From the NCBI GenBank assembly GCA_949358305.1, contig OX442322.1, positions 5,828,001 to 5,892,000 on the forward strand: a stretch of DNA of 64,000 bases. The letters are read 5' to 3'. Below, one piece after another: positions 5,392 to 64,000 of this stretch. A model generated the notes under the pieces. That model was not told where the DNA came from. It worked only from the letters and a program-made list of their open reading frames with translations, and ran no database searches. The position numbers and the translations under genes are program-made. The DNA comes from Strigamia acuminata. Its lineage: Eukaryota; Arthropoda; Chilopoda; Geophilomorpha; Linotaeniidae. Every line of letters starts with the position of its first letter. Position 1 is the stretch's first letter.

Positions 5392-5416
5392 TAGAGGGGG
5401 TTGCCGAAAACCCCCT
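5382..5416 (+). promoter_or_regulatory. -1 ribosomal frameshift signal (gag-pol)
   Basis: The heptamer A AAA AAC (5382-5388, in gag codon phase) directly precedes the gag stop TAA. Six nt after the heptamer starts a perfect 8-bp hairpin: AGGGGGTT (5395-5402), loop gccgaa, AACCCCCT (5409-5416). The pol frame is open through this site. Gypsy-A2 keeps the heptamer and stem but has a different loop. Confidence 0.9.
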
Positions 5417-39563: not shown

Positions 39564-39569
39564 TTTTTT
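39535..39569 (-). promoter_or_regulatory. -1 ribosomal frameshift signal (gag-pol), Gypsy-A2
   Basis: On the minus strand A AAA AAC (39569-39563) precedes the gag stop TAA (39562-39560). A perfect hairpin AGGGGGTT / AACCCCCT follows (39556-39549 and 39542-39535). The loop is actgaa versus gccgaa in Gypsy-A1. Confidence 0.88.
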
Positions 39570-41641
39570 GGAGCCGATGGACCTTCAATCGCCAAAGGCG
39601 GAGTGGTCGCATTTTTTGGATCCAAAAATTTAGTGAATAAATCCGACATGGATTTTGTCATACTAGTTTGCATAGTAGTTTTGAAGTCTTCAAGTTTTTG
39701 GTCCAAAGATTCAGCGGTTACCCAATTTTGTCTCTGTCTTTTAAAAAGATCAGAGGCGGGATTGGTATTGATATTATTACCAGTACCTTGGGGCTTGTCC
39801 TGAACAAATTTTCTTTTTTGCAGCGACGGACATTCCCTCTTAAAGTGTCCTGGTTGATTGCAATGGAAACATTTTCCAGTTGCTTTCTCCGATAGGGCAC
39901 ATACCATGTTGTTGAATCCAACATCATTTTCAATATTGTCTGTCTCGTCAGATTCCATAGGTACAACTTCTGGTTCGGCGTTCAACGTCTGAGTAGATCG
40001 TATGAGTGGGCGCGAACTCCTGGCATCTTTACCTTTTTGAGTATTTGACGGGACAGTTTCGTCCTCTTTATTGGCAATAGTGTCCACACTAGCATTTTGG
40101 GCTTCAAAAAGAGCCCTATTCTGCCTGACAAATTGAAATATGTCATTGAATGATTCTTCATAGAGACCTCTATCGATTATTCGATTGTAACTAACTAAGT
40201 TCAAATTCTCGAGAAGAGTGGGAGCTTCATCTCTTTTTGAATAAGATCCTTGAGCTTGTTTAAATCTCAAAAGAAATGTATAAAGTGGCTCTTCTGGGCC
40301 CTGGATTAAATTTCGAAGCTTTCAGGCTCGAGTGACAGGGATCATGTCAAACTCCGCCAAAAACAACTTTTCGAAAGTTTTCCAGTCAACAAATTTGTCA
40401 ATGTTATCGGTATGCCATTCGTGGGCTATACCAGATAAATAAGTTGGTATTCCGCGTTTTACCATCTCGTCTAGAGTTAAACCTTTAGCGACAGCGACTG
40501 TTTTGGCTGTAGCCAAAAATTTAGCCACGTCCTTCTGTTTTCCATCGAAAACAGGCATATCCTGACCTTTGAAAAAGGTCTTGTTTGAATTGTTTGCATT
40601 ATTATTTTGCTGTGAATTATTCTGCATAAATTGTTGTACTTGATGTGCACAATCAGTTTGAATATTTCGCACATGGGTAAGGATGGCTCCCAAGTCGTCG
40701 GTGGAAAATCTCGCTTGAGATGAACTACCAGCGGAGGATGCCAAACCAGAATTATGTTCAAAATTGGGCAGATTTCCCTTAGGGATCTGATTGTCCTGGG
40801 GGATTTCTTTCCTTGGAGGAACATGATTCTCATACTGTGTATGATTACCAGATGGTACATGTTGTCCATGTGGAACACTACTTTTATTTTGTACACGTTC
40901 TGGGGGTGTCTGATTTGAACGAGTCTTACCCGCCGGTAAATTTTGAATAACGGGGGATGGTGAGATCGGATCGGATCTCCTCGGAGTTCGATTTGACACT
41001 CTTTTTGACTGCGTTGGGGGGACAAACTGTCCTTTTCCCGGTGTCGGGGGGACATAATGTCTATTTCCAGATGCTGGAGTAACGTACTGTCTATGCCCTG
41101 AAGTTTGGGGGATAAAACCCAAATTATTATTGTTAATCGTTCGATTAACACTAGTCGATCTAGACCTTGGTTTGGCTAGATTTAAAGGACTATTAGAACT
41201 GGGTGTTCTTTGTCCAGAACTTTGTTGACTACGGGATCGGCTAAACGATGGTTCGCGTACCATTCTATCGTTTAGCTGTGGAGTCGACACTATCCGGGCT
41301 TGATATCCCAACCTTTTTTTAGGAGAGGGAAAGTCCAGTTTACGATTCGTGGGAATCGTTTTTCGTGGGGTTCGGTGTGAAGTCCGCGAATGCCGACTTT
41401 CATTTTCCGACCCTTCACCTTCATCAGGCCTAATTCTTTGATTTCTTTTCTCAAGTACGCGTACATGATTAACCGCTTCGGTTATGGTTTTGAAATCAGC
41501 CCGATTCAGATTATAAAGTAGACAGTACTCTGTCAAATCGTCCGGAATTAAATCCGTTTGGTCTTCGAGTCGGACGTAACTATTTTCCAAGTTTTCCTCC
41601 TCGACTTCTCGTTCATTCATATGAATGTTTTCATCAGACAT
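39560..41641 (-). pseudogene. gag: Gypsy-A2 Gag with one nonsense codon
   Basis: The start is ATG 41641 (MSDENIHMNE) and the stop TAA 39562-39560. The frame matches Gypsy-A1 Gag throughout, but TGA at 40324-40322 replaces the CGA that encodes Arg in A1 (after IPVTRA), a C-to-T change at a CpG. It lacks about ten residues of the short TSGNRQ-type repeat region present in A1. The core domain and CCHC knuckle CFHCNQPGHFKREC are preserved after the stop. Without readthrough it would yield only a truncated Gag lacking the knuckle. Confidence 0.9.
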
Positions 41642-42427
41642 AATAAAAGTTTTAAATCCTTTATTACTAAAGAACGATAACACTCTTTATAAAAATACAC
41701 TTCAAAATAACAATACACTTCGATAAGGTTAAGTTTAAACTCCACGTGGTGGTTAAACGTGTTAAACTATCGACAAACTTTAAACAATCAAATGAATCCT
41801 ACTACAAGTAAACTAGCGTCGGGTGAGAATGCGCTTTAAACTATTTGTTAAAATAATAGATGAAATACACTTAACTTTCGCTGGTTTACGGCGTGGAAAA
41901 TTCGAATCGGGACTGAACGGGACGGCGTGGTCAAGATGGCTACTGGAGCACGTGTCTGCAGGTCTGGTCTGGATACGAATGGTCGTCTGTAATCTGGATC
42001 CGCGTGGTATCGAGGATCGATAATCCTTTAATCCCTCGATATTTTATTGGTGGAAAGTTATTTTATCCAATGATAAAATGGGAACTAATCCTTTATTTTA
42101 GTAGTTTTCTACTACGTCCGCACTTTGGCCTGGTCAATCTCGTTATTGATTGGATATTTCGTTCGAAAATATTCAACTAACATTGAAATTTTACCAAGCC
42201 TTTTTTCGTGAAAAATTAAAATTAATTTTACTTCGAATTTAAGTGTTTTTTCAACACAACGAAACTTTCCCTTTAATGTTAGAGTTCTCCCGAATCCCAA
42301 CGTTCTTAAAGAGAATTCTCTACTTCGCAAAAGCAGAAACATATAAAATGTTTTGAAATGTTATAATCTTTATTTATCTCAATTTTCACTTTTATTTAAA
42401 TTCGATAAATTTAAAACTGTGCAACCT
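41642..42427 (-). other. Gypsy-A2 untranslated leader
   Basis: 786-nt leader, counterpart of 2493-3279. No gene is supported. Confidence 0.75.
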
Positions 42428-44675: not shown

Positions 44676-45372
44676 TCACTTTCGGGTTAACACACTAAAC
44701 ACTTTTTCACATAATGACTTGATCTTTTCACCAGATATCCACTTTCTGAAAATATCAGCCACATTCCACTGGCCTGGGATCTTGGACAATTTGAAACAGC
44801 CCTTCTCAAACCAGTCGCGTAGGAAAAAGTATCTAATACGAATGTGTTTTGTCTAACCACGCAGAACCACCAGTAGACAGAAAAACAATCTAATTAGCAC
44901 AAAATTAACTACTGGGCTAAATACCTCCTTGTAGTCAACATTGTAAATCTGTCTGAAACCCTGTGCCACCAGTCGTGCACAATAGCAAACAATTTTCCCT
45001 AAATCGTTATATTTGACCTTGAATATCCATTTGTTACCCATGATATGTGAGTGGTTGGGACGAGGTTTAACTTCAAACTCTTCCAACTCTTCGAGAGTAT
45101 CCAATTCTTCGCACATTGCTGCAGCCCACTCATCTTTTTGGGGCGATGTTATTGCTTCTTCGAAGGTGTTTGGTTGTATACCCTCAGCACAATATACTCT
45201 CACGGTATAGAATTCAGGATCGCTATCGTTCACTGGTGTAGGCTCCGGTTCTGCTTGCCCGACAGGATCATTAAAAGATGTTTCCTGTACAATCGTCTCT
45301 ATTGGACGTTGAGTTAGCTTCCAATCATACTCGTTGGCATTGTATGGGACCTTTAATTCCTTCTCACAATAT
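44676..45372 (-). pseudogene. pol: Copia-C pol end: RT start fused to RNase H end by deletion
   Basis: From the Gypsy-U1 insertion at 45372 the frame continues the Copia-C pol linker (CEKELKVPYNANEYD) into the start of reverse transcriptase (NKWIFKVKYNDLGK, VAQGFRQIYNVDYKE, VVLRG). At 44855-44853 a TAG stands exactly where the sequence jumps, in frame, to the last part of RNase H (TKHIRIRYFFLRDW to WNVADIFRKW), ending at TGA 44678-44676. Relative to Copia-B, most of RT including the YVDD motif and most of RNase H are deleted. Upstream coding parts are at 54394-56592 and 57169-57638. Confidence 0.87.
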
Positions 45373-45872
45373 TGTTACGCGGTAGAGCCGTACCGTGTAT
45401 CGGCTGGCTCTGCTCGCTCTGTTTAGGCATTTAATGCAATGAATTCTCACTAGACGGCGCTGTGCACCTAATTAGATGCACAGACCGTTCAACTTAGTTG
45501 ATAGGGGGAATAGGAGTTTACTTAGTGAGTTGATTAAGCCAGAGAGCTCAGATCTCTTTTGATTCTCAAACTGTTACCTTCACCTACTACTGCCAGCCGG
45601 TTGACGGTCAGGCAGGACTAGGTTTCCTGAATTGAATTGACAACAGCATCATCCTTATTTAGTTATTTATTTGATTTGAATGAACCATTTATGTGTTTTA
45701 GGTTTAATAAATGAACAAATGTAATAAGAGCTGATGACCGAACATTTACATTAGTAAATGTCCGACTTTGAATAATAAAGCCAATAGGCATTTTACATAT
45801 AAAACCCTGTGTCATTCTTGATTGAATTCATGTCACGTAGGACTAAATCAATCCCCATTTAGCCACGTAACA
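45373..45872 (+). repeat. Gypsy-U1 5' LTR
   Basis: 500 bp. It contains AGACGGCGC (45452-45460), the variant of the AGATGGCGC motif of the other gypsy LTRs, a TATA-like TATAAAA at about 45800, and AATAAA motifs near 45703 and 45773. Confidence 0.96.
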
Positions 45873-45873
45873 A

Positions 45874-45889
45874 CTGGTGGAGATGCGGT
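45874..45889 (+). other. Putative Gypsy-U1 primer-binding site, tRNA not assigned
   Basis: TGGTGGAGATGCGGTC begins one nt after the LTR end (..GTAACA, then a C-containing spacer). It starts with the expected TGG, but I cannot match it confidently to a tRNA 3' end. Confidence 0.45.
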
Positions 45890-46415
45890 CTCGATTGTAG
45901 CCCGTTTAGATTTAAAATCCCATTAAAATTGGATTAAAATTACCAAAATAATTTAATAAAAATCTAGAAATAAAAACTTGAAAATTGCTGATTTTATAGC
46001 AATTATCTTGAATGACTCAGAGTTGGTAAAAACAAGTGAAGTCACAGCTTGAATATTTAATGTCATTGTGTGAAATAATTTGCATTTTGGAAATGAAAAT
46101 AGAGTTTAATTGTTTATTAGGGATTAATAAATTGATTTACAATTGTTATATTTAGAATAAATAAAATATATAGTGTATAAATACTAATTTTGATATTTAT
46201 TTACAGGAAATTTTGTGAATTTATAGGAATTGAAAAATTGTTTTGAAATGTTATTGTTGGATTATTTTCTTTGTAATTTTGAGTGTAATATTTATGTATT
46301 ATATGCTAATAACACTTTAAGTTTTCAGGTAATGAATTCGTGTTAGTGTATTCAGTGTTTAGAAAGAGATTAGTGCTAGTGAAGTGAATAAAAAAGTGCA
46401 ATATAAGGCTTCAGT
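45890..46415 (+). other. Gypsy-U1 leader
   Basis: About 525 nt, AT-rich, with no supported gene. An in-frame TAA at 46404-46406 closes the gag frame upstream, so no ATG in the leader can start the gag frame without splicing. Confidence 0.75.
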
Positions 46416-47747
46416 GTGGATAAGCCGGTGAAATTGTCACAATTCAACTTGGATAATCTTCAGGATCTACAAAATTTGCAGTCACCTGAACCAAATTTGA
46501 AAAATATCACCACTAGAAGAAGTAAAAACGCTAAATCCGAATCTGACACCGAACCTCAGAAGGAAGATAAAGAAGTCCGATCTCAACCTCAATCAATCCT
46601 ACAGAAGTTGGATTTCGCTACTCCAGCAATAAAATTAATTCCACAAAAAGGTTTAGAAGAAATAATAAAGACATTTACACCAGTAAAAACTAAACCAGTT
46701 CCAACCCCAATTAAACCAAATTTTCCGAAAATGACATCACCACAGACTCCAACGGACGTATTGACCGACTTGTTGAAGAGTTTGGTAGTGCAGAAGCGAC
46801 CAGTCGTCACTTACGATACAGAAAAAGGCAACATTGACCAATGGCTAGTGGCATATGAAGCTACAATAGGAACAGATGATGAGAGGGTAAAACATCTAGC
46901 ATTAGCCTTAAAGACTGATGGATTGGCATGGTTTGTGGAACAACTTAAGAAGAATCCGACATGGAAATGGACGGATTGGAAACCACAGATCGAGAAAAAA
47001 TTTAGAAGAAGCCAAGAAAATGTTTACAATACTCTCCACTTCATGAAACACAAAGAGGGTACAGCAGATGCCTTCATGAAGAAAGTCTTGGCCGAATGTG
47101 CGTTTATTCTACCAGAGATGACTGAAACTCAGAAAATAAATTATGTTTACCAAGGTTTGAAGCCTGCAATGCAGAAGATGATGATAACAGTATTTCCATC
47201 GACGTTAGAAGAAATGGAACAGAGACTTAAATTGTATGAAAGTCACAAAACAGAAGAACCAGCGGATCTACTGCTCACAATGTTCAAAAAAGTTGTAGAT
47301 GAAAAGGTGAACCCTACGACAACAGGTATACTGTCTGGAACAGGGGGATCCCCAGTAAGCTACGCCGAGTTATTAGCTGAAAATATTAAATTAAAACAGC
47401 AAAAGCTCGTTAGTGAGTCAGTAGAGCCACAACAATCGGTTCCATTATTCATACAAGGCGAGTGGTATATTCCAGCATCGCAGCGCGGACAGAACTTTAG
47501 AGGTAGATACAACAGAGGTAGACAGCGGTCAAATAGCAGTCCGACAACAACGCGTTCATGTGGATGTTGGCATCGTTATGGTTGTGAACATAACACATCA
47601 GCGCCACAGGAGCAACAATCTCAGGAAAATAGAGGGAACCCAAACAACAGAAGGTGGTTTAAGAAGAAAAGGATACAAGGGGCTGGTAAAACGAACCCTA
47701 ATCCTAAGCAGAACCCACAACAAGGTCAACAAGAAGAGGAAAACTAG
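46416..47747 (+). CDS. gag: Gypsy-U1 Gag
   Basis: The frame is open for 443 codons from GTG 46416 (reads DKPVKLSQFN after the start) to TAG 47745-47747. The first in-frame ATG is 46731. The N-terminal 105 residues look coding, so either the GTG is a used non-AUG start or a lost ATG, or translation begins at 46731 (338 residues). A Ty3-type gag core is present (IDQWLVAYEATIG, WKWTDWKPQIEKKF, EGTADAFMKKVLAEC, INYVYQGLKP). The C-terminus is Arg/Gly/Asn/Gln-rich with Cys-His residues (CGCWHRYGCEH) but no canonical CCHC knuckle; the basic tail probably binds RNA. The stop is preceded by GAA AAC, and the pol frame overlaps by 40 nt. Confidence 0.88.
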   Translation: MDKPVKLSQFNLDNLQDLQNLQSPEPNLKNITTRRSKNAKSESDTEPQKEDKEVRSQPQSILQKLDFATPAIKLIPQKGLEEIIKTFTPVKTKPVPTPIKPNFPKMTSPQTPTDVLTDLLKSLVVQKRPVVTYDTEKGNIDQWLVAYEATIGTDDERVKHLALALKTDGLAWFVEQLKKNPTWKWTDWKPQIEKKFRRSQENVYNTLHFMKHKEGTADAFMKKVLAECAFILPEMTETQKINYVYQGLKPAMQKMMITVFPSTLEEMEQRLKLYESHKTEEPADLLLTMFKKVVDEKVNPTTTGILSGTGGSPVSYAELLAENIKLKQQKLVSESVEPQQSVPLFIQGEWYIPASQRGQNFRGRYNRGRQRSNSSPTTTRSCGCWHRYGCEHNTSAPQEQQSQENRGNPNNRRWFKKKRIQGAGKTNPNPKQNPQQGQQEEEN

Positions 47748-50700
47748 TGGGTCGGCCACAAGGAAGATGTCACCATCAACAAGGAAGATGTTGTCATCCA
47801 AAGAAGAAAAGAAAAAGTAGAAAAGAGAAGATAATCGTAGTCAATATGAACATTTCAGAATCTCTATTGGAAATTCCAGTAATAGTGAACAACATGGAAG
47901 TCAAGGCAGTTATGGACACTGGAGGAAAACGCAATGTTATCAGCGAAGAGCTTGCTGAAGCTTTACAGTTGAAGTACCCGCCAAGCCCAAATATACGATT
48001 ACAAGGGGTAAGCGGAGAACTTGTGACTCCAATAGGAAAAGCCAAGATGAACATTACAATTGGTGAATTAACATACAGGATCGAGGTCCTGATTGTTAAA
48101 GGATTTCATTATGAATTACTGCTAAGTGACCCATTCATGCTGTTCGCGAAGTGCGTGTTAGACTACGACAAACAAAAAATCTTTGTGGGCCGAACTAGTG
48201 GAAAGGAAGTGTCATTTCCAATGAATAAAACTTTTGTTGATCAGAATTATGTTGCGAGGGTAATGAAGAACATCACAATTCCACCAATGCATGAGTGCAT
48301 TGTTCCCATCTATTTGAATAAAGCAATAACATTGGACATGTTTGTGCAACCATTACATAATGTTACTGATAGATTTGCTGTGATAGGTTGTAAAACTTTG
48401 ACAGATTTCAAGAACGGAAAAGGCATCATTCGAGTGGCTAACCCAACCAAGAAGACAGTCTTTCTGAAGGAGAAGTCAGCAATCGCAAAAGCTTATTATG
48501 TGGTTGATGTTGGGGTGTTTGATGAAAAACAGGTACACTGTTTTGACTTTGACTCCTCAATAGCAAAAGACAAAATGAATAAAGACCAACAAGAGCAAAT
48601 GCGACAACTTCTTCAAAAGAATCAAGACAGATTTGCTGTTTCTGACAAGGATTTGGGAAGAGTTCAAGTGTATAAGCATAAAATCGATACTGGAGACCAT
48701 GACCCAATACATTTGCAACCGTATCGTCGTTCTATGAAGGAAAAAGAAGTCGAAGCTGAGGAAACAAAGAAATTGCTTGATATGGGAGTGATAAGGGAAT
48801 CAGAAAGTCCCTGGAGCGCGCCTGTATTGCTAATAAAGAAAAGAGATGGTAAGTGGAGATTTTGTGTCGACTGGAGACGTTTGAATGCGATAACAAAGAA
48901 AATGGTGTACCCATTGCCAAGAATAGATGACACTTTAGATCAGCTGGCAGGTGCACAGTTCTTCTCCATGATGGATCTTATTCAAGGATATTATCAAGTC
49001 GAAATAGATGAACAAGATCGCGAAAAAACAGCATTTACCACTTCAAGCGGACATTTTGAGTTTAACGTCCTAGGAATGGGATTATGCAATAGTCCAGCAG
49101 CTTTTCAAAAGTTAATGAATAAAGTTTTAGGCAACCTCCTAGGCAAAGTTTGTATAGCGTACATTGACGACCTTATCATTTTCTCTAAAACATTCGATCA
49201 GCATTTGAAAGATCTAGACAACGTTTTCGACAAGCTTAGACAATCTAACTTAAAGGTGAAGTTGAGCAAGTGCACATTTGGAACGAACACCATCAAGTAT
49301 TTAGGACATGTCGTGGACTCTGAGGGTATATCACCAGACCCTAGGAACTTGGAATCCGTCGCGAAGTTTCCAGTTCCTACTAACCTCAAACTTCTTCGAG
49401 GATTCATAGGGCTCTGTTCGTATTACAGGAAGTTCATTCCAGGTTTTGCGGACATATCCAAGCCCTTAGTCAATTTGACGAAGAAGGACGAGAAATTTGA
49501 TTGGGGCCCACCTCATGACAAGGCCTTCAAAACATTGAGGACCGCCCTTATCACCGTGCCAGTGCTTGCGCACCCTAATTTTGAAGAACCCTTCATGGTA
49601 TCGACTGACGCGAGCGCATATGGTCTTGGAGCAGTGTTGAAACAGAAGATAAACAAACAAGAACATGTGATAGCTTATGCCAGCAGACTTCTCAGCCAAG
49701 CAGAACAGAATTACACAGCCACAGAAAGGGAATGTCTGGCTATTCTGTTTGGAATTGAAAAGTACCGACCTTATCTGTATGGTAAGAAGTTCCAGATAAT
49801 TACAGACCATTCGGCACTCCAATGGCTGAAATCAGTCAAAAACCCCAATGGCAGACTAGCTAGATGGAGCCTACAGCTAGTAGACTTTGATTTCGATGTG
49901 ATCTACAAGAGCGGAAAAGCGCACAAAGATGCCGACGCCTTGAGCAGAATTCCAGAAGATTTAAGCGAGGAAGAAAACGAAATAGTTCCCTCACTTTTAC
50001 TCGAACAGCTCGACCTTCCTGCTGAGCAGCGTAAGGACAAGAAGCTACTGGAATTGATCACCGCAATGAATCAAGTAGAGCAACTTCCGAAGAAGAGAAG
50101 ACGTCCTCTAAAGCAGTTCGTTCTTCTCGACAATGTGTTGTTTAGGAAGAAAAATTCTTTGAATTCCCTAGACACGGAAGTAAATCTGTTATATGTTCCG
50201 CAGCATTTGAAAACTGCAGTTCTTGAAGAAATGCATGACGGACTGACGGGTGCTCACTTGGGCCTAAACAAAACGTGGAAGAGAATGAGAACAAGATTCT
50301 TCTGGCCCCGGATATATAAAGACGTTAGAAATTACGTACTTTCTTGTCCACATTGCGCGAGCTCGAAATCAATGACAACAGCGCCAAAAGGTTTAATGCA
50401 GCCGTGGTCTACGATATCTAAGCCTTTCGAGAGGATTGGAATCGATACACTGGGAAGTTTTCCGACCTCCGACAAGGGCAACAAGTATGTTTTCGTAATG
50501 ACAGATTATTTGTCGCGGACAGTGATTGCTAGAGCAGCTCCAGCATCAACAGCGTTGGAAGGAGCTAGAACCTTGCTTTATGAGTTAATGTTGAAGGAAG
50601 GCAGTCCGAGAGAAATCCTGAGCGATAGAGGCACAGAATACAGAAACAAAATGGTGGAAGAAGTATCAAATATGTTTAAAGCCCTACACAAAACCACTTC

Positions 50701-51691
50701 AGGGTACCATCCAAGGACCAATGGACTTACCGAGCGTTTTAATGCGACGTTTGCAAAAATGTTGCAGATTTATGTTGATAAGGACCAGAGGGACTGGGAT
50801 GATTTTTTGCCATTTTTGCTTTTCTCATATAATACCGGTGTGCATGAAACGACAGGATATACACCTTATTATCTTTTGAAAGGATATGAAGTTGATTTGA
50901 ACGTGGACGTAAACCTCAACTTACCTCAAAAAGAATTTACCTTGCGAACCTCAAAATTCATCAGAGAAGCTAGGAAGATAGCAAATGAAAGGTTGGAATG
51001 GCAAGGAGGAAAAAGCAGAAAAAGATTCGATCAAGGCCGAGTTCATGTGGAATTTGACCCAGGAGAATTAGTATATCTCAAAACACCCAATAGAAAAGTT
51101 GGGTTAAGTGAAAAACTCCTGCCACAATTCTCAGGCCCATACGAAATAGTAAGAAGAACCGCGCCAAATGACTACGAAATTAGAAGTTCAAATGGAAAGA
51201 AAACAGATATTGTCAACATTGAACGATTAAAACCGTATAAACCCAGAGAAGAAATTCCAGCGGAGATATTAGAAGAATTGACAGCTAAAAAAGTCACATT
51301 TGTTGATGAAACTGCAACACAGAGTGAAAAACAACAAGAAATTGAAGAAAACACGTCAATTTCGCCAATTCCGATCGCTAAAGAACGATTCATTAGCGAT
51401 GACGACCAAATTTCGTTAAAAACACTCTTTGAACCTGAAGAAAATACAATAAAAGTGTCAAATTTCCCAATTTCAAGTGAAAAAGAGCGATTAAAAGCGC
51501 TCTATGGACCGAAAGAAATTATGGAAAGATGGCAAAACGAAGACGAACGGAAAAACAAAGAAAATCAATTGCGAAAACCGCCGACAGGTGTCGCTGACGC
51601 AGTCGATGACGCGTCGCCGCCTGAAATCGAGAGTTTCCGGTCACGTCGCCTTCGCAAACAGGCTCGTCGTGACTACAGTGGATTGTGTTAA
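47708..51691 (+). CDS. pol: Gypsy-U1 Pol (PR-RT-RH-IN), intact
   Basis: The frame is open in the -1 phase from 47708, overlapping the end of gag; expression presumably needs a -1 frameshift. The junction reads G GAA AAC TAG, an imperfect slippery site. Domains: aspartic protease with AVMDTGGKRNVI (47900-47940); RT with SPWSAPVLLIKKRDG, YPLPRID and YIDDLIIFSK (near 49160); RNase H with STDASAYGLGAVL and ITDHSALQWL; integrase zinc module (HDGLTGAHLG to CPHCASSK, about 50230-50365); DDE core (GIDTLGSFP, LSDRGTEYR, TNGLTERFN); and GPY/F-type module (LLPQFSGPYEIV). The tail is acidic then basic (SFRSRRLRKQ). There is no stop or indel in over 1300 codons. It is related to the pol end of Gypsy-U2. 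Confidence 0.94.
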   Translation, partial: AEPTTRSTRRGKLVGRPQGRCHHQQGRCCHPKKKRKSRKEKIIVVNMNISESLLEIPVIVNNMEVKAVMDTGGKRNVISEELAEALQLKYPPSPNIRLQGVSGELVTPIGKAKMNITIGELTYRIEVLIVKGFHYELLLSDPFMLFAKCVLDYDKQKIFVGRTSGKEVSFPMNKTFVDQNYVARVMKNITIPPMHECIVPIYLNKAITLDMFVQPLHNVTDRFAVIGCKTLTDFKNGKGIIRVANPTKKTVFLKEKSAIAKAYYVVDVGVFDEKQVHCFDFDSSIAKDKMNKDQQEQMRQLLQKNQDRFAVSDKDLGRVQVYKHKIDTGDHDPIHLQPYRRSMKEKEVEAEETKKLLDMGVIRESESPWSAPVLLIKKRDGKWRFCVDWRRLNAITKKMVYPLPRIDDTLDQLAGAQFFSMMDLIQGYYQVEIDEQDREKTAFTTSSGHFEFNVLGMGLCNSPAAFQKLMNKVLGNLLGKVCIAYIDDLIIFSKTFDQHLKDLDNVFDKLRQSNLKVKLSKCTFGTNTIKYLGHVVDSEGISPDPRNLESVAKFPVPTNLKLLRGFIGLCSYYRKFIPGFADISKPLVNLTKKDEKFDWGPPHDKAFKTLRTALITVPVLAHPNFEEPFMVSTDASAYGLGAVLKQKINKQEHVIAYASRLLSQAEQNYTATERECLAILFGIEKYRPYLYGKKFQIITDHSALQWLKSVKNPNGRLARWSLQLVDFDFDVIYKSGKAHKDADALSRIPEDLSEEENEIVPSLLLEQLDLPAEQRKDKKLLELITAMNQVEQLPKKRRRPLKQFVLLDNVLFRKKNSLNSLDTEVNLLYVPQHLKTAVLEEMHDGLTGAHLGLNKTWKRMRTRFFWPRIYKDVRNYVLSCPHCASSKSMTTAPKGLMQPWSTISKPFERIGIDTLGSFPTSDKGNKYVFVMTDYLSRTVIARAAPASTALEGARTLLYELMLKEGSPREILSDRGTEYRNKMVEEVSNMFKALHKTTSGYHPRTNGLTERFNATFAKMLQIYVDKDQRDWDDFLPFLLFSYNTGVHETTGYTPYYLLKGYEVDLNVDVNLNLPQKEFTLRTSKFIREARKIANERLEWQGGKSRKRFDQGRVHVEFDPGELVYLKTPNRKVGLSEKLLPQFSGPYEIVRRTAPNDYEIRSSNGKKTDIVNIERLKPYKPREEIPAEILEELTAKKVTFVDETATQSEKQQEIEENTSISPIPIAKERFISDDDQISLKTLFEPEENTIKVSNFPISSEKERLKALYGPKEIMERWQNEDERKNKENQLRKPPTGVADAVDDASPPEIESFRSRRLRKQARRDYSGLC

Positions 51692-52105
51692 GGTTTTCTG
51701 AGACGAACCAGGTTTACTGTGTGACTCAAAGAAACCTAAAGCATTAATAACAGCAGCAGTTGATTTGTGTGTGATTCCGTAAGTGAAAAGAGTGGATTTT
51801 GAACGAATTTGGCGAACAAATAGCTTAAAAACGAAACAAATCTATCGCAAATTTTGTGAAAAATAACATCGCGAAATGGAAAATTAGGCTTAAATAATTG
51901 TGTTAAAACTTCGAAATGAAATTTTAGTGTGTGCATACATTATCAAGTGACTAATTAGTTGAAGAATTGTTAAATTTAGTGTAAATTAGTGCAACATGAG
52001 ATGTTAAATGAAATAATGAATGGAAATTGGAATAATTTTGTGAAAATTTTGAATTAATGAATTAATTTTTTTTATTTTCTTTTCAAACAATATATTAGGA
52101 TCCGA
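51692..52105 (+). other. Gypsy-U1 spacer with a candidate 3' splice site
   Basis: 414-nt AT-rich spacer. Just before ORF3 lies a strong T-rich tract ending in AG (about 52066-52099, last bases AATATATTAG), seven bases upstream of the ATG. This would suit a spliced subgenomic mRNA for ORF3. Gypsy-U2 has a similar tract before its ORF3. Confidence 0.6.
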
Positions 52106-53479
52106 ATGGACGAAATGGCAAGCAAATTTGATCGGATGGATGTGCGTAGTGACAGTGACAGCGATGCGGATTCGGTTTGCTCGATGCAAGTGGGCGATCT
52201 TTTGGAACGTCAACTTAAGAAAGGCAATGACTTGGAAATTTATCTAGCTAATAAGCCTAGCACAAGCAAAACTTTGGACGAATTGGTTAACTGCCCACGC
52301 CCGTTTACAGAAGGAAAACAAAAGGCGGAGGAAGATAAAAAGAAATATGCAGGACCATTAACAAAGGGTGAAGAAGGCTTATTGCGTCGTCGTCGTAAGA
52401 ATCGACAATTGAAACGAGATAAGAAAGCACAAAAGAAGAAAGTGTTTGACGAGCAATCGAAAAGAATCCGGGAAGAAGAAATGCGTCACACCGTTGATCG
52501 AAACAAACGCCGATTAAATGATTTGCGAATGGAGCACCGGAATATGGTCAACGCCATTAGAGCCAGGAAATTAAAAGGAGTGATGGGATTGCCCGACTAT
52601 CAGTTGTGGAGAACAGGGGCGAATGCTTTGCTGATCCAGGAGGCGAAAATAAGGAAAAACATTTTAAAAGCCATCGCCCTAGCGAGAAGAGAGTCCTTCC
52701 AGGACCCTAGTGTAGTATTTCCTACTCCTATACGGGTATACCGTGTGGAGTTGGACGCTGCACGACAGGTCCAGGCTCTCGGACTTGCATTAGACTATAG
52801 TAATGCGCCAAAATATGACTTAGCATTCGACGCCGTAGGTTGTCCGCCGATTAAAGTCATGAACTATCAGATGGCAGCATTAGGCGATCTAACGCCGGGA
52901 CGACAGAGCTGGACGTATGACAGCGTCGTTGATTACTACCTCCAACTGTTAGAAGAACGATATCCTATATTGGCACCAATTCAATCTGAGTGGGTATACA
53001 AAATGGTGGACCCAGCTAAACGAAAGGAAGCGATCTATTGGCTAATGAGGAGACTTCCAAGTGCTCAAAAGAAGATTTGGGTGTTTCCAGTTCCTATTGA
53101 AGAGCATTGGCAGCTTTTCATAGTGGATTGGCGGAAAAAGCCAACCCAATACGTGCTTTACGACCCAAGCGGACCAATAGAGCGCACATATCCAAAGTGG
53201 GAATCTTTAAGGTACTCGTTGATGGATGCAGGAGTAAAGTTTCCAAACAAGTTCATACGTTGGGACCCGCCACGTATGCACCAATTGGATAATGACAGCT
53301 GTGGCCCAACCATACTCTACTTCACTAGAAGATATGTTGAAGACCGTGACTTAATGCAGTTTGGGGAGCCATGTGAGTTACGCTTACGATTTGTGTATGA
53401 GATTGCAAACCGTGAAATTCTCCCATTCGAGTTGATCAAGGAAGAGGATAAGAAAGATCAAGCGGAAGGAGGAGAGTGA
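52106..53479 (+). CDS. Gypsy-U1 ORF3: Ulp1/adenain-like cysteine protease
   Basis: The ORF is intact, 457 residues from ATG 52106 (MDEMASKFDRMD). The N-terminus is acidic/Ser-rich, then has PSTSKTLDELV and a highly basic stretch (RRRRKNRQLKRDKK). The C-terminal half has the signature of papain-fold C48/C5 proteases: IWVFPVPIEEHW with His334, VLYDPSG with Asp353, and MHQLDNDSCGP with Gln393 and Cys399. The Gln-Cys spacing of six equals that of yeast Ulp1 as I recall it. Such enzymes cleave SUMO-like proteins or viral polyproteins; the substrate here is unknown and could be element Gag-Pol or a host SUMO conjugate. No signal peptide or membrane segment is present, so it is not an Env. It lies in the env position of an intact element. 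A diverged relative is encoded at 60304-61735. Family assignment rests on motif layout, not on a search. Confidence 0.85.
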   Translation: MDEMASKFDRMDVRSDSDSDADSVCSMQVGDLLERQLKKGNDLEIYLANKPSTSKTLDELVNCPRPFTEGKQKAEEDKKKYAGPLTKGEEGLLRRRRKNRQLKRDKKAQKKKVFDEQSKRIREEEMRHTVDRNKRRLNDLRMEHRNMVNAIRARKLKGVMGLPDYQLWRTGANALLIQEAKIRKNILKAIALARRESFQDPSVVFPTPIRVYRVELDAARQVQALGLALDYSNAPKYDLAFDAVGCPPIKVMNYQMAALGDLTPGRQSWTYDSVVDYYLQLLEERYPILAPIQSEWVYKMVDPAKRKEAIYWLMRRLPSAQKKIWVFPVPIEEHWQLFIVDWRKKPTQYVLYDPSGPIERTYPKWESLRYSLMDAGVKFPNKFIRWDPPRMHQLDNDSCGPTILYFTRRYVEDRDLMQFGEPCELRLRFVYEIANREILPFELIKEEDKKDQAEGGE

Positions 53480-53889
53480 AGTGAACTTTAACTTCTTTAA
53501 GTGAATAAGTGTAAAATCAACACGAACTTTGAACATTTTTTTTTGTGTGTGTTTTTTTTTTATTTTATAGAAAATTGAAAACTGAGAAAAAAAGTAATAT
53601 AAAACAAAAAACCAAAAAAGTGTTATTATTGATGAAAAGTGTTAATTTTATTTGATTTTAAACTTTGAATATTGTTTCCAATGTAAAAGTGTAATAAAAA
53701 GTGACTATGACATTTATAAACATTGAAAAGTGTATCATATTATATTTTTGTAAAAATAAGGATGATGAAAAGAGATTCTCAAAATTGTAAAATTGAGTTT
53801 ATGATTTGAAAATTTTTATGTAAAAGGAGATGCGTTAGTTAGAACAATTCATTGTTTTTCGAGAGACCGAAAAAATTAAAGGGGGGGGC
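53480..53889 (+). other. Gypsy-U1 3' UTR and polypurine tract
   Basis: 410 bp of T/A-rich sequence ending in the polypurine tract AATTAAAGGGGGGGGC beside the 3' LTR. No gene is supported. Confidence 0.85.
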
Positions 53890-54389
53890 TGTTACGCGGT
53901 AGAGCCGTACCGTGTATCGGCTGGCTCTGCTCGCTCTGTTTAGGCATTTAATGCAATGAATTCTCACTAGACGGCGCTGTGCACCTAATTAGATGCACAG
54001 ACCGTTCAACTTAGTTGATAGGGGGAATAGGAGTTTACTTAGTGAGTTGATTAAGCCAGAGAGCTCAGATCTCTTTTGATTCTCAAACTGTTACCTTCAC
54101 CTACTACTGCCAGCCGGTTGACGGTCAGGCAGGACTAGGTTTCCTGAATTGAATTGACAACAGCATCATCCTTATTTAGTTATTTATTTGATTTGAATGA
54201 ACCATTTATGTGTTTTAGGTTTAATAAATGAACAAATGTAATAAGAGCTGATGACCGAACATTTACATTAGTAAATGTCCGACTTTGAATAATAAAGCCA
54301 ATAGGCATTTTACATATAAAACCCTGTGTCATTCTTGATTGAATTCATGTCACGTAGGACTAAATCAATCCCCATTTAGCCACGTAACA
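53890..54389 (+). repeat. Gypsy-U1 3' LTR
   Basis: 500 bp, identical by eye to 45373-45872; followed by the duplicated atat. Confidence 0.96.
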
Positions 54390-54393
54390 ATAT

Positions 54394-56592
54394 TCTTTGA
54401 TCTCGGGTCTACTCCGGAGTGGAGTTCGCTGGCCTGGCGGATAAAAATATATGTCCCATTGTCCTTTTGTTGTCCCAGACTGACGCTGCACCTCTTCCCT
54501 TTCCCACCCAGGTTTATTCGGAATGGGAGTTCTAAACGCTACCCTGGTGGGTCTCAACGGCGTTGTAGCAACAGGGACTTGTTTATGCGTTGTAACAAAG
54601 GGATGAATTACAGGGGGAGCAGGTGGAGCAGGCAGCGCAAGCGGCGCAACCGTAGGTTTGGGTATGGTCTTTGGGGGTTGTGACGGTTCATCATCATCGC
54701 TCTCATCACTGGAGTCAATTGGATTGTAAAAGGAATCATTGCCATCAGATATGTCAAAAGGGCTGTCACCGACGTGTGTCTTCACCACATCTTTGTAGAC
54801 TTTTGACTCATCTATCTTAAGATGTTTATTTTCATAAACATCGTCTGAAATTGGATCCCATATCCTGTACCCCCGGGTTCCCATCGCATAGCCCACAATA
54901 ACTCCTTTCCAGGCCCTTGGTTCAAGTTTGGTCTTCCGGTGTGCTTTAGGGATATGCACATAAGCAAGTGCCCCCGGTATGCGCAAATGTGTTACCGATA
55001 AAGGGCGTTTCCGCCAAAGCACGTATGGAATTTGATTGTTCAGGCGTGCATGGGGATACCGGTTCTTTAAATAAATGACAGTCATTGCTAGTTCTGCCCA
55101 TAAAGATTTGGGCAGTCCCAAACTCAGCAATATAGCCCTAGGTCCTATTTACTCTCTCGGCTACCCCGTTCATCTCAGCACTAAAGCTGTTAGTCCTCTG
55201 AAAGGTGACGCCTAAATTTGTTAGAAAATTCTCAAATTCCCTGGAAACAAACTCGCCCCCTCTATCAGTACGGATAGATTTGATTTTGGAACCACTCAAA
55301 CGTTCTACGCGCATATGGAAATTCTTGTATGTCTCAAAAACCTTTTCTTTAGTTTTCAGGGGAAAAATCCAAGAATAGCGAGTACTGTCGTCAATAATGC
55401 AAAGCAAATACTTTGCTCCTCCCAATGATGGAATTTGACAAGGCCCCCACAAATCCATGTGTAATAATTCTAATGGATTAGTAGTCAATACTCTACTTTC
55501 TGATCGGAAACTAGCTCTCGTAGACTTTGAAATTTCGCAATTCTCACACAATCCCTTATGGACATGATCATGAAAGTCAATACCTTTTACATCTTTGTTA
55601 CTTGTCAAATAGTTTAAACCTTTGGTATACATGTGTGCATATCTTTGATGCCACACATTTACACTAACACTATGACTCTCAGGCCTGCTTGATGTGTTGG
55701 TCAGTGTATCAATGTGCGAAACATTTAAACATGGCTTGTCAGCCGACTTGCACTTCACTGGACCAACTACTCGGTATAAACCACCGTCGAGTTTTCCTAA
55801 CATCAGACAAACCTTTGAATCATTTTGGTAAATACGCATAACATTATTAAAAATATCAATATGACACTTTGAACAATCAATCTTACCAATAGAAATTAAA
55901 TTTCGTTTGAAACCTTTGACATAATACACATTATTCAACGTAATTTCTTTCACAATTCCATCTACTTTCACAGATAACTCAATGGTACCTCGTCCGGTAA
56001 TACTCGATGATCCTTCACCGAGTTCCAAACGCATCGGGGTTAATTCGGTGAAGTCATAAAATAAGTCACGATTACCGCATACATGATGTGACGCACATGA
56101 GTCCAAATACCAATCACTCAGTTGATTTTCGACCGTTGCACTGCAGACTAAAGATGAACCAATGACATTTGCAAACCATGCCGCTTTCCCCGAATGGCTC
56201 TCTGGTTGCGCCTTTTGAACGTGCCCACCTTTCTTACCACGATCACGTCCCCGTCCGCGACCTCTGGATTTTTGATCGCCCTTTGAAACTTTGGGCGCCG
56301 TACAGTCACGTGCGTAATGGCCTGGTAATCCGCAGTTGTAGCAAATCAGGGACTCGGTGCTTGATTTGCTCTGGCTGGTCTTACTTGAACTCGCATCACT
56401 TCTACCTTGTTGATTCATGTAATATGCGACAGTTGTCTCCATGGCTTTGTCACTTTCCGCAGACAAGCGACGACGATTTGCTTCAGCCAACAACGATTTC
56501 GAGACTTTATCGAAGGTGAAATCTGCTTTGGACCACTGATAAATTGCTTGAACTTGGTGCTCATAATCTTTACCAATGCGATTTATCAATAA
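54394..56592 (-). pseudogene. gag-pol: Copia-C gag (rear), protease and integrase
   Basis: From 56592 the frame continues gag (LINRIGKDYEHQ, YQWSKADFTFDKVSKSLL), then a CCHC knuckle CYNCGLPGHYARDC at about 56302-56343, protease with WYLDSCASHHVCG, and integrase (HQRYAHMYTKGL, CENCEISKS, HMDLWGPCQ, RTDRGGEF, NGVAERVNR). At 55140-55138 a stop and a single-base frame change follow NRT; the next frame resumes as AILLSLGLPKSLWAEL (55130 downward) through the linker to EIKEY, where Gypsy-U1 is inserted. This family is more diverged from Copia-B/R/L than those are from one another. Confidence 0.88.
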
Positions 56593-56596
56593 ATAT

Positions 56597-57164
56597 TGTC
56601 ACGTGTACGAACCGTGCCAATTAATGCGCGATTCGTAACACGTAATTCGATTTATTATTATTAAATGTTGCTAAATTTCGGCCACAGATGGCGCTGACGG
56701 TTGGACTCCGTCATTGCCATGTGATGGACTGATCAATTAGATTATGGGGTTTATGGCAGATTTGCTATAAATAAGGAGCCCGCACTAAGACAGGTCCTAA
56801 TCACTTTTGCTTTTCAGCTCTAGAGAGTCTGATGTCGCCTCATTACAGAGCGCGGCTGATGACTATAAAACCATAGTTACATCGCATTTAAGATATCACA
56901 CAGTTGTTTATAACCCAGTTAATAACGGTTGTACAAATTAATAAGAATGTAAAAATGATAGTTTATCCGGATAACATTCCAAACTGTTTGAGAATAAATG
57001 TAACTGAATTTGAAAGGGATCGAACAAACTTTGTTTGTCCGGTCAAATAAAACTGAATTGAATTTAAACATAAAACCAATCTCATCCTTTCCTGTCACAC
57101 TCACTAAAACCCCAAATAAAACACGTTGCGTGGAAACCTAATTAGGCCCGGAAGCCACGTAACA
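56597..57164 (+). repeat. Solo LTR of a Gypsy-U2-type element
   Basis: 568 bp, begins TGTCACGTGTACG and ends GCCACGTAACA, with target duplication atat at 56593-56596 and 57165-57168. It is closely similar to the Gypsy-U2 LTR (59434-60006, opposite strand). AGATGGCGC lies at 56686-56694. No internal sequence remains, so it arose by LTR-LTR recombination. It splits Copia-C gag between NKAYC and INRIGK. Confidence 0.92.
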
Positions 57165-57168
57165 ATAT

Positions 57169-57638
57169 GCTTTATTACTGTCCTGTGGCTTTAAGTGGTC
57201 CCCTGCAGCTGTCAAATCGTCGGCAGCCTTCTCAACACGTGAAATAAACGCGTCAACCTCCTCATTATCCAAGCGGCGCATTAAATAAAAATTCTCGATT
57301 AATACCGCTTCACGGGCTAAGGAGCTGGGTTCAAATAAAGCCTTAAGATGGTCCCAAACCTCCTTGGTTGTCTTGAATTTCATCGCCGCTGGCTGCAACC
57401 TCGGTACAATGCATTGCAGAATGATGGCACGAGACTTCGCTTTATTCTTTTCAAAGCGGTCCTTCATATCCTGGCTGGCTGTTGCTGCATCAGGTGCTTC
57501 TTGCTTTCCAGTGGCAAATGGCCAAAGTCCTTTTTCTTCTAATAAAAGCTGAACATCTATGGCCCACTGGATATAATTTACTTTATCCAGCTTGGTGATC
57601 CCTGCAGACGCTGACCTGGTGATATCCTTCTCAGCCAT
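57169..57638 (-). pseudogene. gag: Copia-C gag N-terminal part
   Basis: Starts at ATG 57638 (MAEKDITRSAS), open for about 156 codons to the solo LTR. It shows the copia gag pattern: KLDKVNYIQWAIDVQLLL, VWDHLKALFEPSSLAREAV and DAFISRVEKAADDL. The frame resumes at 56592 beyond the inserted LTR. An upstream in-frame start at 57701 would add 21 residues from the leader; 57638 fits other copia gags better. Confidence 0.87.
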
Positions 57639-57784
57639 GGCGAAATTCTGCAAATTTAATAAGAAGACGGCAGAAAAAGTTCCAGAAATTGTAAAAATCA
57701 AAATTTTTACCTTTTATTGCCCAAAATGGTCATTGGGCAATTTTCCAGCTTTGGTCAGCAGCCAAACCATCCTCTGCTACCAAT
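57639..57784 (-). other. Copia-C short leader and primer-binding site
   Basis: About 130-nt leader. The PBS at 57767-57782 reads TGGTAGCAGAGGATGG on the minus strand, matching initiator tRNA-Met, 2 nt from the LTR end. Confidence 0.88.
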
Positions 57785-60303: not shown

Positions 60304-61735
60304 TTAGATTTCTTCGAAAGGTTTGAATTTTCCATGCTGGATCTCGTACAGGATTCGAACTCGCAACTCCGAGCCTTCCGCTAACTTCATCAGGTCTCGG
60401 CACTCAACATATCTGCGAGCAAAGTGCAAAATCATAGGCCCGCAGCTATCCCCATCGAGCTGGGCTGCTTTTGGAGGTTCCCACGTCTCGTAACTCGGTA
60501 TTTCGTATCCAGAACCTCTCAAGTTGAGTTTGATGTTGTTCCACCATGTAAAATGATCTAAGTGTGGCTTCCCCGACGAGTCGTAGAACCCCACACACGG
60601 CGGAGAACGCTCCATATCGAACACGTATATGATCCAGTGTTCCTCCGCCGGTATGGGGAAGAACCAGATCTTGTGCTCCTTTTTTGGTTGGTCCACTTGG
60701 TCGCGAAACCAACACCATGTATTGTCCTTTCATCAGTTTCGCCACGGTTGCCACTGGAAACGCATAAACTATAGGATAACGCTTCATCAACATACCCAAA
60801 TAATAATCGACCACCGTGTCGTGAACCCAAGATATTCGGCCTGGCATTAATGCTCCCAAAGCAATCATCTCTCTGGGGCCGACTGCGATATGTGGTCGCA
60901 ATTCCGACACATACATTGGCTCATCTGGGTGGTGTTGAAAATACTTTGGCCATTTCTCCAGGGCTTCCATCGCTTTATCTGCAGGGATCTTAACTTCGTA
61001 ATCAACTGGTGGTAACGGCAAATTGATTCGCGGATCATAGAGCGCTGTTCTCTTCCCTAATTCTTTTGCGCGATCCACTTTATTACGAATCTTCGCTTCT
61101 TCCAGGATCAAAACCTGTGCCTCCTGCTTATAGGCTTGAAAGATTGGTCGTCCTTCCGCGCCCCTCGGTTGAAGAGGAATAACCGCCGCCGCTAGATTTC
61201 TCTGTTCAACGTTAATCTCCAGCAAACAACGGAAATTTCTCCTCACCGCTCGCTGAGATTGCTCTCGAATGATTCTCAAACCCCTTGGCGTCAGTTTTTT
61301 TTTCTCAATACCTTCCGTTTAACGACGCAAGATTCTGTTACGCTTACGCCGCTCCTGACGATTCTTCCTTTTAATGAACTTCGGGTCGTTTGGATCTAGC
61401 ATCTTCGGTGGCTGGTTGTGACCTTTCTTACGTCTATCGGTAAATGGGCGTTCAAACTGGACTATGTCCTCCAATTTAACCGTTTTGCTGGTACCCGCTG
61501 TTGGATTGTTCAGATCTATACTCCTATCGTACCAGTTCCACATGGCCATCGGGTCAATCTCTGCTTCAGCTTGATCAGGCATCGCATCGTTTAAGTTCGT
61601 TGACTCTTCAGTTGGTTCAATCGGCTCAACTTCAATTGGTTCGGTTGGTTCGTATTCTGGTATTTCGAACTCGTCGCTCTCGTCTGAGCTCGAATGGATG
61701 TCCATCCTGTCGGATTTGCTTGCCATACTTTCCAT
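60304..61735 (-). pseudogene. Gypsy-U2 ORF3: decayed Ulp1/adenain-like protease
   Basis: The start is ATG 61735 (MESMASKSDRMD, aligning with MDEMASKFDRMD of Gypsy-U1). There is an acidic N-terminus with TSKTVKLEDIV and RPFTDRRKK, then a basic stretch. An in-frame TAA at 61321-61319 interrupts it; the frame continues in phase to about 60700, where a single-base-type frameshift occurs, and the protease end is read in the next frame to 60304. The catalytic layout is kept: IWFFPIPAEEHW (His), VGFYDSSG (Asp), AAQLDGDSCGP (Gln and Cys, six apart). Flanking similarity to U1 is moderate (GRISWVHDTVVDYYL versus GRQSWTYDSVVDYYL), so the protease was present before the two lineages split. This copy is not functional as read. 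Confidence 0.85.
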
Positions 61736-62657
61736 TTGATGGTCCTTCGCACTATCACTAAGCACTAAACGATTCCAACCTACTTATGAAGAAAATAAAA
61801 CAAAATAAAATTAAATTAAATAATATCAATTATATTATGCCTAATAAATAAAATTATTCCTATTGTAAATAAATGTTTCATAATAAACTTCAATCACTCA
61901 ATTATTTCTAAAAGAATTTCAAATTAATTAAATTTTTTCTTTCATTTTTCAAGTTTTCTTTAAAAAAATCATTAATATTTTCAAAAACAAACATCAACTT
62001 ATTCTATTTTACTTATTTACAATAAATTATTCTTATCAAAATTCAATCAAATTTCCATCAAAAAATATTTACATTTATCAAACTTGTTCAATTTTAACAA
62101 AGTTCGCAATGAATTTGCTTATCGCGTCTCGAATCATTCGTGTTGTTAGAACTAAATTTTCAATTCCTCTTTGAAATTTATTTTAATTTACTCTACTATG
62201 CTATTAAATTCAGCATTTTATAATTTTAAAATTTTACCTAAATTGTTAAGCCTAATTAAAATTCAATGCAGATGAACGAAGATCGCGCTGGGTCCTTCCG
62301 CGTCCCCGCCATTCGCACTTTCATTACTTCTTATTTATACCTTAAAATCATTTTATTTCACACTAATGTGTCATTAAATTTAACTCCTAATTATTTAAAA
62401 TTTCAATTTTAAAATATTTTCACCTAATTAAAATTCTAACACGAATGAACGAACATGGCGATTAGTTTCACTTTACGAAAATCGCTCAAAAAAAACGTTT
62501 AAAATCTCAAAATTCATCTCTAAAATCACTTAAAATTATCAATATCATTCATACAAACCTTTTGAAACACAATTTTATACACAAAATATAAATAAATAGA
62601 CAAAAAAGGATTTTGTTTCCGGGTCACACTATGAGTTCGTGTTCACCGTAGCAAGAA
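61736..62657 (-). other. Gypsy-U2 spacer between pol and ORF3
   Basis: 922 bp, very AT-rich, about twice the length of the Gypsy-U1 spacer. A T-rich tract ending TAAGTAG (minus strand, about 61783-61820) precedes ORF3 and could be a 3' splice site. No gene is supported. Confidence 0.65.
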
Positions 62658-64000
62658 TCAATAGCAATGGCAATAGTCTTTTCGTTTCTGCGGTCTGAGT
62701 CTGCGCGACCGGAAATCGTCTTTTTGTGTATTTGCGCCATCTTGTGGCGGATTTTTAAGTTGATTTTCATTATTTCCTATCAAAGGCTGTGGTTCAAATA
62801 GCTATTTTAACGAGATTTGTTCTGTATCGTCCATGTAACGTTCCTTTGGTTTGATTTTCATCTTTTTAACTGGTTTTTCGATGTGTTCTACTACAATTTC
62901 TCCTTTTTTACTGATTTTCTTTACTTTATCAGCAAATTTCACTTTCTTTTCTGGTAAATCTTTCAAAACTTCATCTATTTCTGGTTCAACTCGTTCTTTA
63001 TACGGTTTTAGTCTTTCTACATTCACTATATCTCTTTTCTTTCTTGTTGAATTGATTATTTCGTAATCATTCGGTGCAGTTCTTCGCACAATTTCGTATG
63101 GGCCGGAAAATTGTGGTAAAAGCTTCTCTGACAAGCCAACTTTTCTGTTGATGGTTTTCAAATAAACCAATTCACCTAGTTCAAACTCTTTGTTGACTCT
63201 ATCTTCATCAAACCTTTTCTTGCTTTTTGCAGATTGTTTTTCTAATCTTTCATTTGCAATTTTCCTGGCTGCTCGAATAAATTTCGCTGTCCTTAAAGTA
63301 AATTCTTTCTGTGGCAAATCAAGATTTACATCTACTGTCAAATCCACGTCATATCCTCGTAAGAGATAGTGTGGTGTATAGCCTGTTGTTTCATGAACTC
63401 CCGTGTTATATGAAAACAGAAGAAATGGAAGAAACTCGTTCCAGTCAGTATGTTCGTCGTTGACGTAACTTTGCAACATTTTTGCGAATGTCGCATTAAA
63501 TCTCTCAGTTAATCCGTTTGTTCTTGGATGACATCCTGACGTAGTTTTATACAAACTTTTAAACATATTTGAGACTTCCTCAACCATTTTATTTCTGTAT
63601 TCCGTTCCACGGTCGCTTAAAATTTCCCTTGGGCTGCCTTCTTTCAGAATCACTTCATACAACAAAGTTTTCGCTGCTTCTAAAGCTGTAGCTACTGCTG
63701 CTGGTCTAGCTATTGCAGATCTCGAAAGATAATCAGTTACAACAAAAACATGTTTATTTCCAAGTCGTGATAATGGAAATGGTCCAAGTGTATCTATTCC
63801 AATTCGTTCAAAGGGCTTTGAAACTGTCGACCATGGCTGCATTAATCCTTTAGCTGGTGTTGTCATTGTTTTTGCTTTTGCGCAGTGTTGGCAGGACAAG
63901 ACGTAATTTCTAACATCTTTGTAAATTCTTGTCCAGAAGAATCGTGTTCTTATTCGTTTCCACGTTTTTGCCAATCCCAAATGAGCTCCTAGTAATCCAT
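62658..64000 (-). pseudogene. pol: Gypsy-U2 Pol, C-terminal part (integrase)
   Basis: The frame is open from the window edge to TAG 62804-62802, then continues about 47 codons to TGA 62660-62658; Gypsy-U1 has a sense codon at that TAG. It carries the integrase zinc module (GAHLGLAKTWKR to CQHCAKAK), DDE motifs (GIDTLGPFP, LSDRGTEYR, TNGLTERFN), the GPY/F-type segment LLPQFSGPYEIV and the conserved tail DDTEQISLK and FRSRRLRPQ. Over this region it is clearly homologous to Gypsy-U1 Pol. RT and upstream domains lie beyond the window. Whether the TAG is a fixed earlier terminus or decay is not certain. Confidence 0.88.

Follow-up and report, generated by a model that had tools for sequence, protein, structure and literature searches.

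In this work, we present a computational analysis of a 64,000-nucleotide stretch of the Strigamia acuminata genome (contig OX442322.1, positions 5,828,001 to 5,892,000 of the forward strand), referred to here as the window. The analysis concerns a retrotransposon whose third open reading frame (ORF3), in the position of env, encodes a protein resembling the Ulp1/SENP cysteine proteases. Paired 500-bp long terminal repeats (LTRs) of the TG...CA type and an ATAT duplication identify the element as an LTR retrotransposon, its pol carries Pfam domains in the Ty3/gypsy order (protease, reverse transcriptase, RNase H, integrase with H2C2), and it is a complete Ty3/gypsy element. The LTRs are identical and thus point to a recent insertion. 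Features of the element, in window positions, are:

45369 to 45372, no strand: target site duplication ATAT, 5' side, at the LTR flank
45373 to 45872, + strand: 5' LTR, 500 bp, TG...CA, 0 of 500 differences from the 3' LTR
45873 to 45892, + strand: likely primer binding site directly 3' of the 5' LTR, TGG from 45875
46416 to 47747, + strand: gag with a Ty3-type capsid region (Pfam PF19259, E 7.4e-4, below its cut-off)
47747 to 51691, + strand: pol with aspartic protease, reverse transcriptase, RNase H, integrase with H2C2 zinc domain and C-terminal domains (Pfam matches)
52106 to 53479, + strand: ORF3, Ulp1/SENP-like cysteine protease protein of 457 amino acids (reading frame, genome matches, alignment, profile, model)
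53870 to 53889, + strand: purine-rich tract 5' of the 3' LTR (sequence)
53890 to 54389, + strand: 3' LTR, 500 bp, identical to the 5' LTR
54390 to 54393, no strand: target site duplication ATAT, 3' side, at the LTR flank

Conservation, selection and predicted fold of ORF3

The original prediction had described an intact frame of 457 codons, bounded by pol and the 3' LTR, in which the motifs EEHW, YDPSG and QLDNDSCG supply His334, Asp353, Gln393 and Cys399; the frame (457 codons and a stop), motifs and residue numbers were all recovered. Regions and residues of ORF3 were assigned as listed below, the single codons by alignment and profile; confidence of the structure model is given as the predicted local distance difference test score (pLDDT).

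52106 to 52252, + strand: residues 1-49, acidic N-terminus of low confidence (pLDDT <50 for residues 1-53)
52253 to 52741, + strand: residues 50-212, helical in the predicted model, with a basic cluster resembling a nuclear localisation signal at about 93-112
52739 to 53422, + strand: residues 212-439, SENP/Ulp1-like catalytic domain
52910 to 52912, + strand: codon of Trp269, aligned with a Trp of SENP1
53105 to 53110, + strand: codons of His334 (catalytic by homology) and Trp335
53162 to 53164, + strand: codon of Asp353, catalytic by homology
53282 to 53284, + strand: codon of Gln393, oxyanion hole by homology
53300 to 53302, + strand: codon of Cys399, nucleophile by homology

Relatives of ORF3 were sought in this one genome (237.5 Mb, 157 contigs), where the protein gave at least 94 matches, 80 of them free of internal stops. 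These are matches rather than copies, as two places occupy two rows each and scoring was confined to the best candidates; a broken ORF3 relative within the window itself (see below) is absent from the 94. By identity, 45 matches fall at 90-100%, three at 61-76% and 46 at 34-47%. The thirty best-scoring loci of the first group (L001-L030, L001 being the window copy) all have pol upstream and an LTR downstream. Six diverged loci (L043-L048) each hold a full ORF3, 33-41% identical to the window protein, and in five of them pol was found in the 1.5-kb upstream flank, at 56-69% identity in L043, L045 and L047, 33% over 141 columns in L046 and over only 55 columns in L048. Further upstream, related gag and pol occur in L051 (above L045) and L055 (above L046), and a different gypsy pol (29% identity) in L053 above L044; L054 above L047 gave no match. 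Above L043, which carries a B-family ORF3, a related gag-pol (L052) lies a few kb off in opposite orientation, perhaps a nested or inverted insertion. Over ten family pairs the identities of pol and ORF3 rise and fall together only roughly (D-E 0.93 for pol and 0.63 for ORF3; A-E 0.60 and 0.32; A-C 0.75 and 0.40), as expected of an ORF3 co-inherited with pol and evolving faster. A pseudogene or a recently trapped host gene was rejected on the several diverged families, the predominance of frames without stops and the presence of pol in 30/30 window-family loci.

His334, Asp353, Gln393 and Cys399 are invariant in seven of seven aligned ORF3 proteins and align with SENP1, in the His-Asp-Gln-Cys order and with Gln six residues before Cys, as had been claimed from the window copy. 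Together with Trp269 and Trp335 they are retained in 29/29 other window-family copies, taken as the best-scoring of about 45. The seven proteins also share an acidic start (8-10 acidic residues among the first 30) and a basic 20-mer that begins at residue 90-119; none has a membrane segment, the highest 19-residue mean hydropathy being 0.69-1.53. Hydropathy below membrane grade and the basic 20-mer together suggest that ORF3 is likely a nuclear rather than a membrane protein, and a plain envelope protein was rejected for want of a hydrophobic segment in 7/7.

ORF3 shows purifying selection. Among the seven proteins (21 pairs) the proportion of non-synonymous differences (pN) is 0.16-0.49 and that of synonymous ones (pS) 0.74-0.88; synonymous sites are saturated, so a corrected ratio was computable in 2 of 21 pairs only (0.26 and 0.08). 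When 27 window-family copies were compared with the window copy (L026 and L027 were left out for indels), 76 distinct differences were counted, 55 synonymous and 21 non-synonymous, against an expected non-synonymous share of 72.8% at transition weight 4; the binomial probability of 3e-16 ignores shared ancestry and assumes a single mutation spectrum. Across all 29 other copies, synonymous to non-synonymous counts are 64 to 23 in ORF3 and 53 to 28 in the last 300 pol codons, and within ORF3 32 to 12 in the protease part and 27 to 10 before residue 212, so that constraint on ORF3 looks about equal to that on pol.

The ORF3 sequence profile resembles SENP1, with a residue-level alignment that covers the catalytic set. 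Structure prediction, which had been proposed as a check, returned a model (built on seven sequences) whose fold is best likened to SENP1/Ulp1, with 13-20% identity in the rows for SENP1, SENP2 and yeast Ulp1; the predicted fold is thus the Ulp1/SENP catalytic one. Convergence of the triad in one active site is predicted from the SENP1 profile alignment and this fold match. For the helical region (residues 50-212), fold comparison of the model was uninformative. A chance motif was discarded on conservation, selection, profile and fold, and the earlier proposal of a deSUMOylase-like or polyprotein-processing enzyme gains support from sequence and model.

These two activities lead to different accounts. 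As a maturation protease, ORF3 would work alongside the aspartic protease and process the Gag or Gag-Pol of its own element at specific sites, often Gly-Gly-X, in the manner of adenain (family C5), African swine fever virus (ASFV) pS273R (C63) and poxvirus I7 (C57). We regard this as quite improbable because the predicted model lies nearer SENP1, because the element already has an aspartic protease, and because the sole Gly-Gly of Gag is not kept in place in two related Gags, though these carry four and two elsewhere. The viral maturation enzymes, including the Polinton protease, appear structurally further from ORF3 than SENP1 is; adenain is not among the 50 fold matches listed, which is no evidence against a likeness to it.

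A non-enzymatic accessory protein with a SENP-like fold, active in RNA export or packaging, or an env-like protein appears very improbable. The available part of a report on Cer1 does offer a precedent, CERV, an ORF in the env position acting in nuclear RNA export (PMC10309623), and the basic helical N-terminal region of ORF3 could bind nucleic acid. Against such a role stands the catalytic set, invariant in every protein and copy compared, and an env-like role is further opposed by the lack of any membrane segment.

Proposed function of ORF3

We favour, as fairly probable, the view that ORF3 is an accessory Ulp1/SENP-type protease, made from a spliced mRNA, which acts in the nucleus as a deSUMOylase and weakens SUMO-dependent silencing. 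Its mRNA would most likely be a spliced subgenomic one, like that of retroviral env, for which two sites are candidates:

46326 to 46331, + strand: candidate 5' splice site CAG/GTA (GT at 46329-46330) in the leader, the only site of consensus pattern in 45873-46430
52097 to 52098, + strand: candidate 3' splice site AG behind a T-rich tract, 7 nt 5' of the ORF3 ATG (leader comparison)

Five of eight leaders, those of families A, B and C, have an AG 5-7 nt 5' of the ATG behind a T-rich stretch, and in the A, B43 and C44 leaders it is the sole AG within 80 nt. A candidate donor is present in the window leader (CAG/GTAATG) and in the related L051 (CAG/GTAAAG, 5' of gag). These arrangements fit expression of ORF3 from a spliced subgenomic mRNA.

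The N-terminal region, helical and basic, would probably bring the protein to the nucleus, where its His-Asp-Gln-Cys site would most likely cut after the Gly-Gly of SUMO and free host (or element) proteins of this modifier. For the element, the likeliest gain would be a weakening of SUMO-dependent transcriptional silencing, for instance piRNA (PIWI-interacting RNA)-guided heterochromatin. What we infer for ORF3 is thus that it is an active protease, that SUMO is its substrate, that its mRNA is spliced, that the protein is nuclear and that it counters silencing. According to the accessible text of one study, inactivation of Ubc9 or of Siz1/Siz2 in yeast raises Ty1 RNA (PMC8585004), and another, as far as its available passages go, reports that in Caenorhabditis elegans SUMOylation of HDA-1 is required for Argonaute-directed silencing, with parallels to fly Piwi and Su(var)2-10 (PMC8131101). 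A deSUMOylase made by the element could weaken silencing of this kind.

Several points weigh against this account. The fold does not give the substrate, which may be ubiquitin, NEDD8 or a polyprotein, and the anti-silencing role is argued from precedent only. Even that precedent is not simple in direction, as the same yeast study, in its accessible part, also finds Ty1 RNA raised when Ulp1 is mislocalised or its function or tethering is lost (PMC8585004). The model rests on its seven sequences, and the ten-residue blocks with Trp269 and with Gln393/Cys399 have a mean pLDDT of 69. Pfam lists no PF02902 match for the window ORF3 protein; the family is weak in six of the seven alignment members (searched to E 10; best E 3.1e-4), and of 29 matches in a genome search with PF02902 none falls at the 94 ORF3 places. 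L044 has no matching pol within 1.5 kb upstream. Three of the eight leaders (D and E types, two of them from the same family) have several AGs, the last of these 9-12 nt from the ATG, and the donor of L055 is poorer and about 1.1 kb 5' of the gag frame, so that related leaders are not uniformly good.

The same fold and residue evidence, and the co-inheritance of ORF3 with pol across families, would equally suit a deubiquitinase or deSUMOylase whose target is the Gag or integrase of the element itself, which it would protect or switch at the level of stability, assembly or nuclear entry, rather than host silencing factors. We consider this unlikely, although the results at hand do not separate it from action on host silencing.

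Among known systems, SENP1/SENP2 and yeast Ulp1 (C48) are cellular, whereas ORF3 is borne by an LTR retrotransposon and differs by its low identity to them, its own basic helical N-terminal region and its weak or missing PF02902 match. NeSL/Utopia elements of nematodes are likewise retroelements with an Ulp1-like cysteine protease, but in the available description these are non-LTR elements in which Ulp1 is the N-terminal domain of the long interspersed nuclear element (LINE) protein (PMC4640811), while ORF3 is a separate frame between pol and LTR. Ulp1/C48 domains are also described, in the parts of the sources at hand, for Ginger1 and Mutator (PMC2836005) and for oomycete CryptonF/S (PMC3212892), elements which, in contrast to ours, are DNA transposons. 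Bdelloid rotifer LTR elements resemble the present case in having an enzyme as ORF3 instead of env, yet the enzymes are different (GDSL esterase, DEDDy exonuclease), and the accessible text describes no protease ORF3 for them (PMC5408684). Errantivirus env and Cer1 CERV share the gene position, and spliced expression, suggested for ORF3, is known for CERV; errantivirus env differs in that ORF3 is without a membrane segment, and the source excerpt on CERV names no protease. That ORF3 of LTR elements need not be env is noted in the available part of a review (PMC5718144).

The original prediction knew of no established Ulp1-like ORF in gypsy LTR elements, and this agrees with the open-access literature on Ulp1, C48 or SUMO proteases with retroelements, where the matches listed include no Ty3/gypsy element that carries one. 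Protease and element are each of a familiar type, and what is new relative to the literature searched is their pairing. A protein collection queried with the window ORF3 and with alignment A1 (7997 candidates scored each, shared exact five-residue words needed), as well as phages and IMG/VR, gave no relatives of ORF3, which does not show its absence from other animal genomes. The same protein collection gave 2422 pol matches and hence does hold such elements; the listed pol relatives share the Pfam set of the focal pol, and the nearest named ones include Cordylochernes (a pseudoscorpion), Amblyomma and Nuttalliella (ticks) and Trichonephila (a spider). The mitochondrial COX1 frame contains 11 TGA codons, and the bovine structure 1occ is among its best PDB matches; taken by themselves, these sequence likenesses would suggest an animal host, probably an arthropod and perhaps an arachnid.

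If the favoured account of ORF3 is true, an ORF in the env position can be a protease, and Ty3/gypsy joins the transposons carrying Ulp1-like domains. Silencing of transposons in animals works partly through SUMOylation, so an LTR retrotransposon that keeps a SUMO-protease-like gene of its own would offer a direct candidate for retrotransposon-encoded counter-defence. More tentatively, and with more doubt than confidence, we propose that a Ty3/gypsy lineage acquired a SUMO protease of cellular type where env would be and kept it through diverged families as a nuclear counter-defence deSUMOylase against small-RNA or heterochromatin silencing machinery.

Other mobile elements and minor features

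The window's broken ORF3 relative belongs to a second element on the minus strand:

60307 to 61735, - strand: diverged, disrupted ORF3 relative with an in-frame stop and a frame change (30% identity over 357 alignment columns, 45% over 128)
62673 to 63998, - strand: C-terminal part of pol, 66% identical to the focal pol

Its catalytic stretches are recognisable in pieces, aligned at the same places as in ORF3. The gap between pol and ORF3 is about 940 bp there (61736-62672, -) and 414 bp in the focal element (51692-52105, +).

Regarding the focal gag, its frame opens after a stop at 46404 and has no ATG until codon 106 (region 46407-46733), yet its protein aligns with that of L051 from residue 1 (59% over 418 columns); translation is likely to begin at a codon other than ATG or in an exon spliced on from upstream. 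Rfam, tRNA and bacterial-type promoter scans of the window gave nothing informative.

Ulp1-like domains seem common among the mobile elements of this genome. In the L036 frame C48 exceeds its cut-off and the Mutator-transposase, SWIM and PHD matches stay below theirs; six places (L036-L041) share an identical 745-aa stretch joining C48 to Mutator-transposase-like and PHD-like matches; another C48 protein lies in a 665-aa frame (L042). In L036 the C48 domain shares a transposase-like frame, whereas ORF3 has its own, and profile similarity of ORF3 to these is weak (A1 profile, small set: E 0.031 for L036, 6.4e-5 for L042).

Copia-type frames on the minus strand flank the focal element on both sides (44853-45233, with RVT_2 at 44856-45233, and 54360-57701, with integrase, gag-pre-integrase and SH3 at 54363-56589), so it appears inserted in a copia-type element. 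Copia elements here carry a methyl-CpG-binding domain (MBD)-like domain (PF01429) between the integrase part and reverse transcriptase; it scores 39.0 bits at 54360-55130 (-) against a cut-off of 21, and falls short of that cut-off in a second copia element at 22442-23410 (+), with 19.0 bits, and in the L048 flank, with 16.4 bits.

Another third ORF downstream of pol occurs in a different gypsy family of the window, located at about 3238-11951 (+) and 32990-41683 (-):

10341 to 11951, + strand, and 32990 to 34600, - strand: third ORF of 536 aa with the cysteine-rich stretch CPFCFGVGWMSGSGTGCHLASCGNC

No Pfam family exceeds its cut-off for this protein, and the 10341 copy has no PDB sequence match. 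A diverged relative of it was noticed by eye at 26892-27668 (+).
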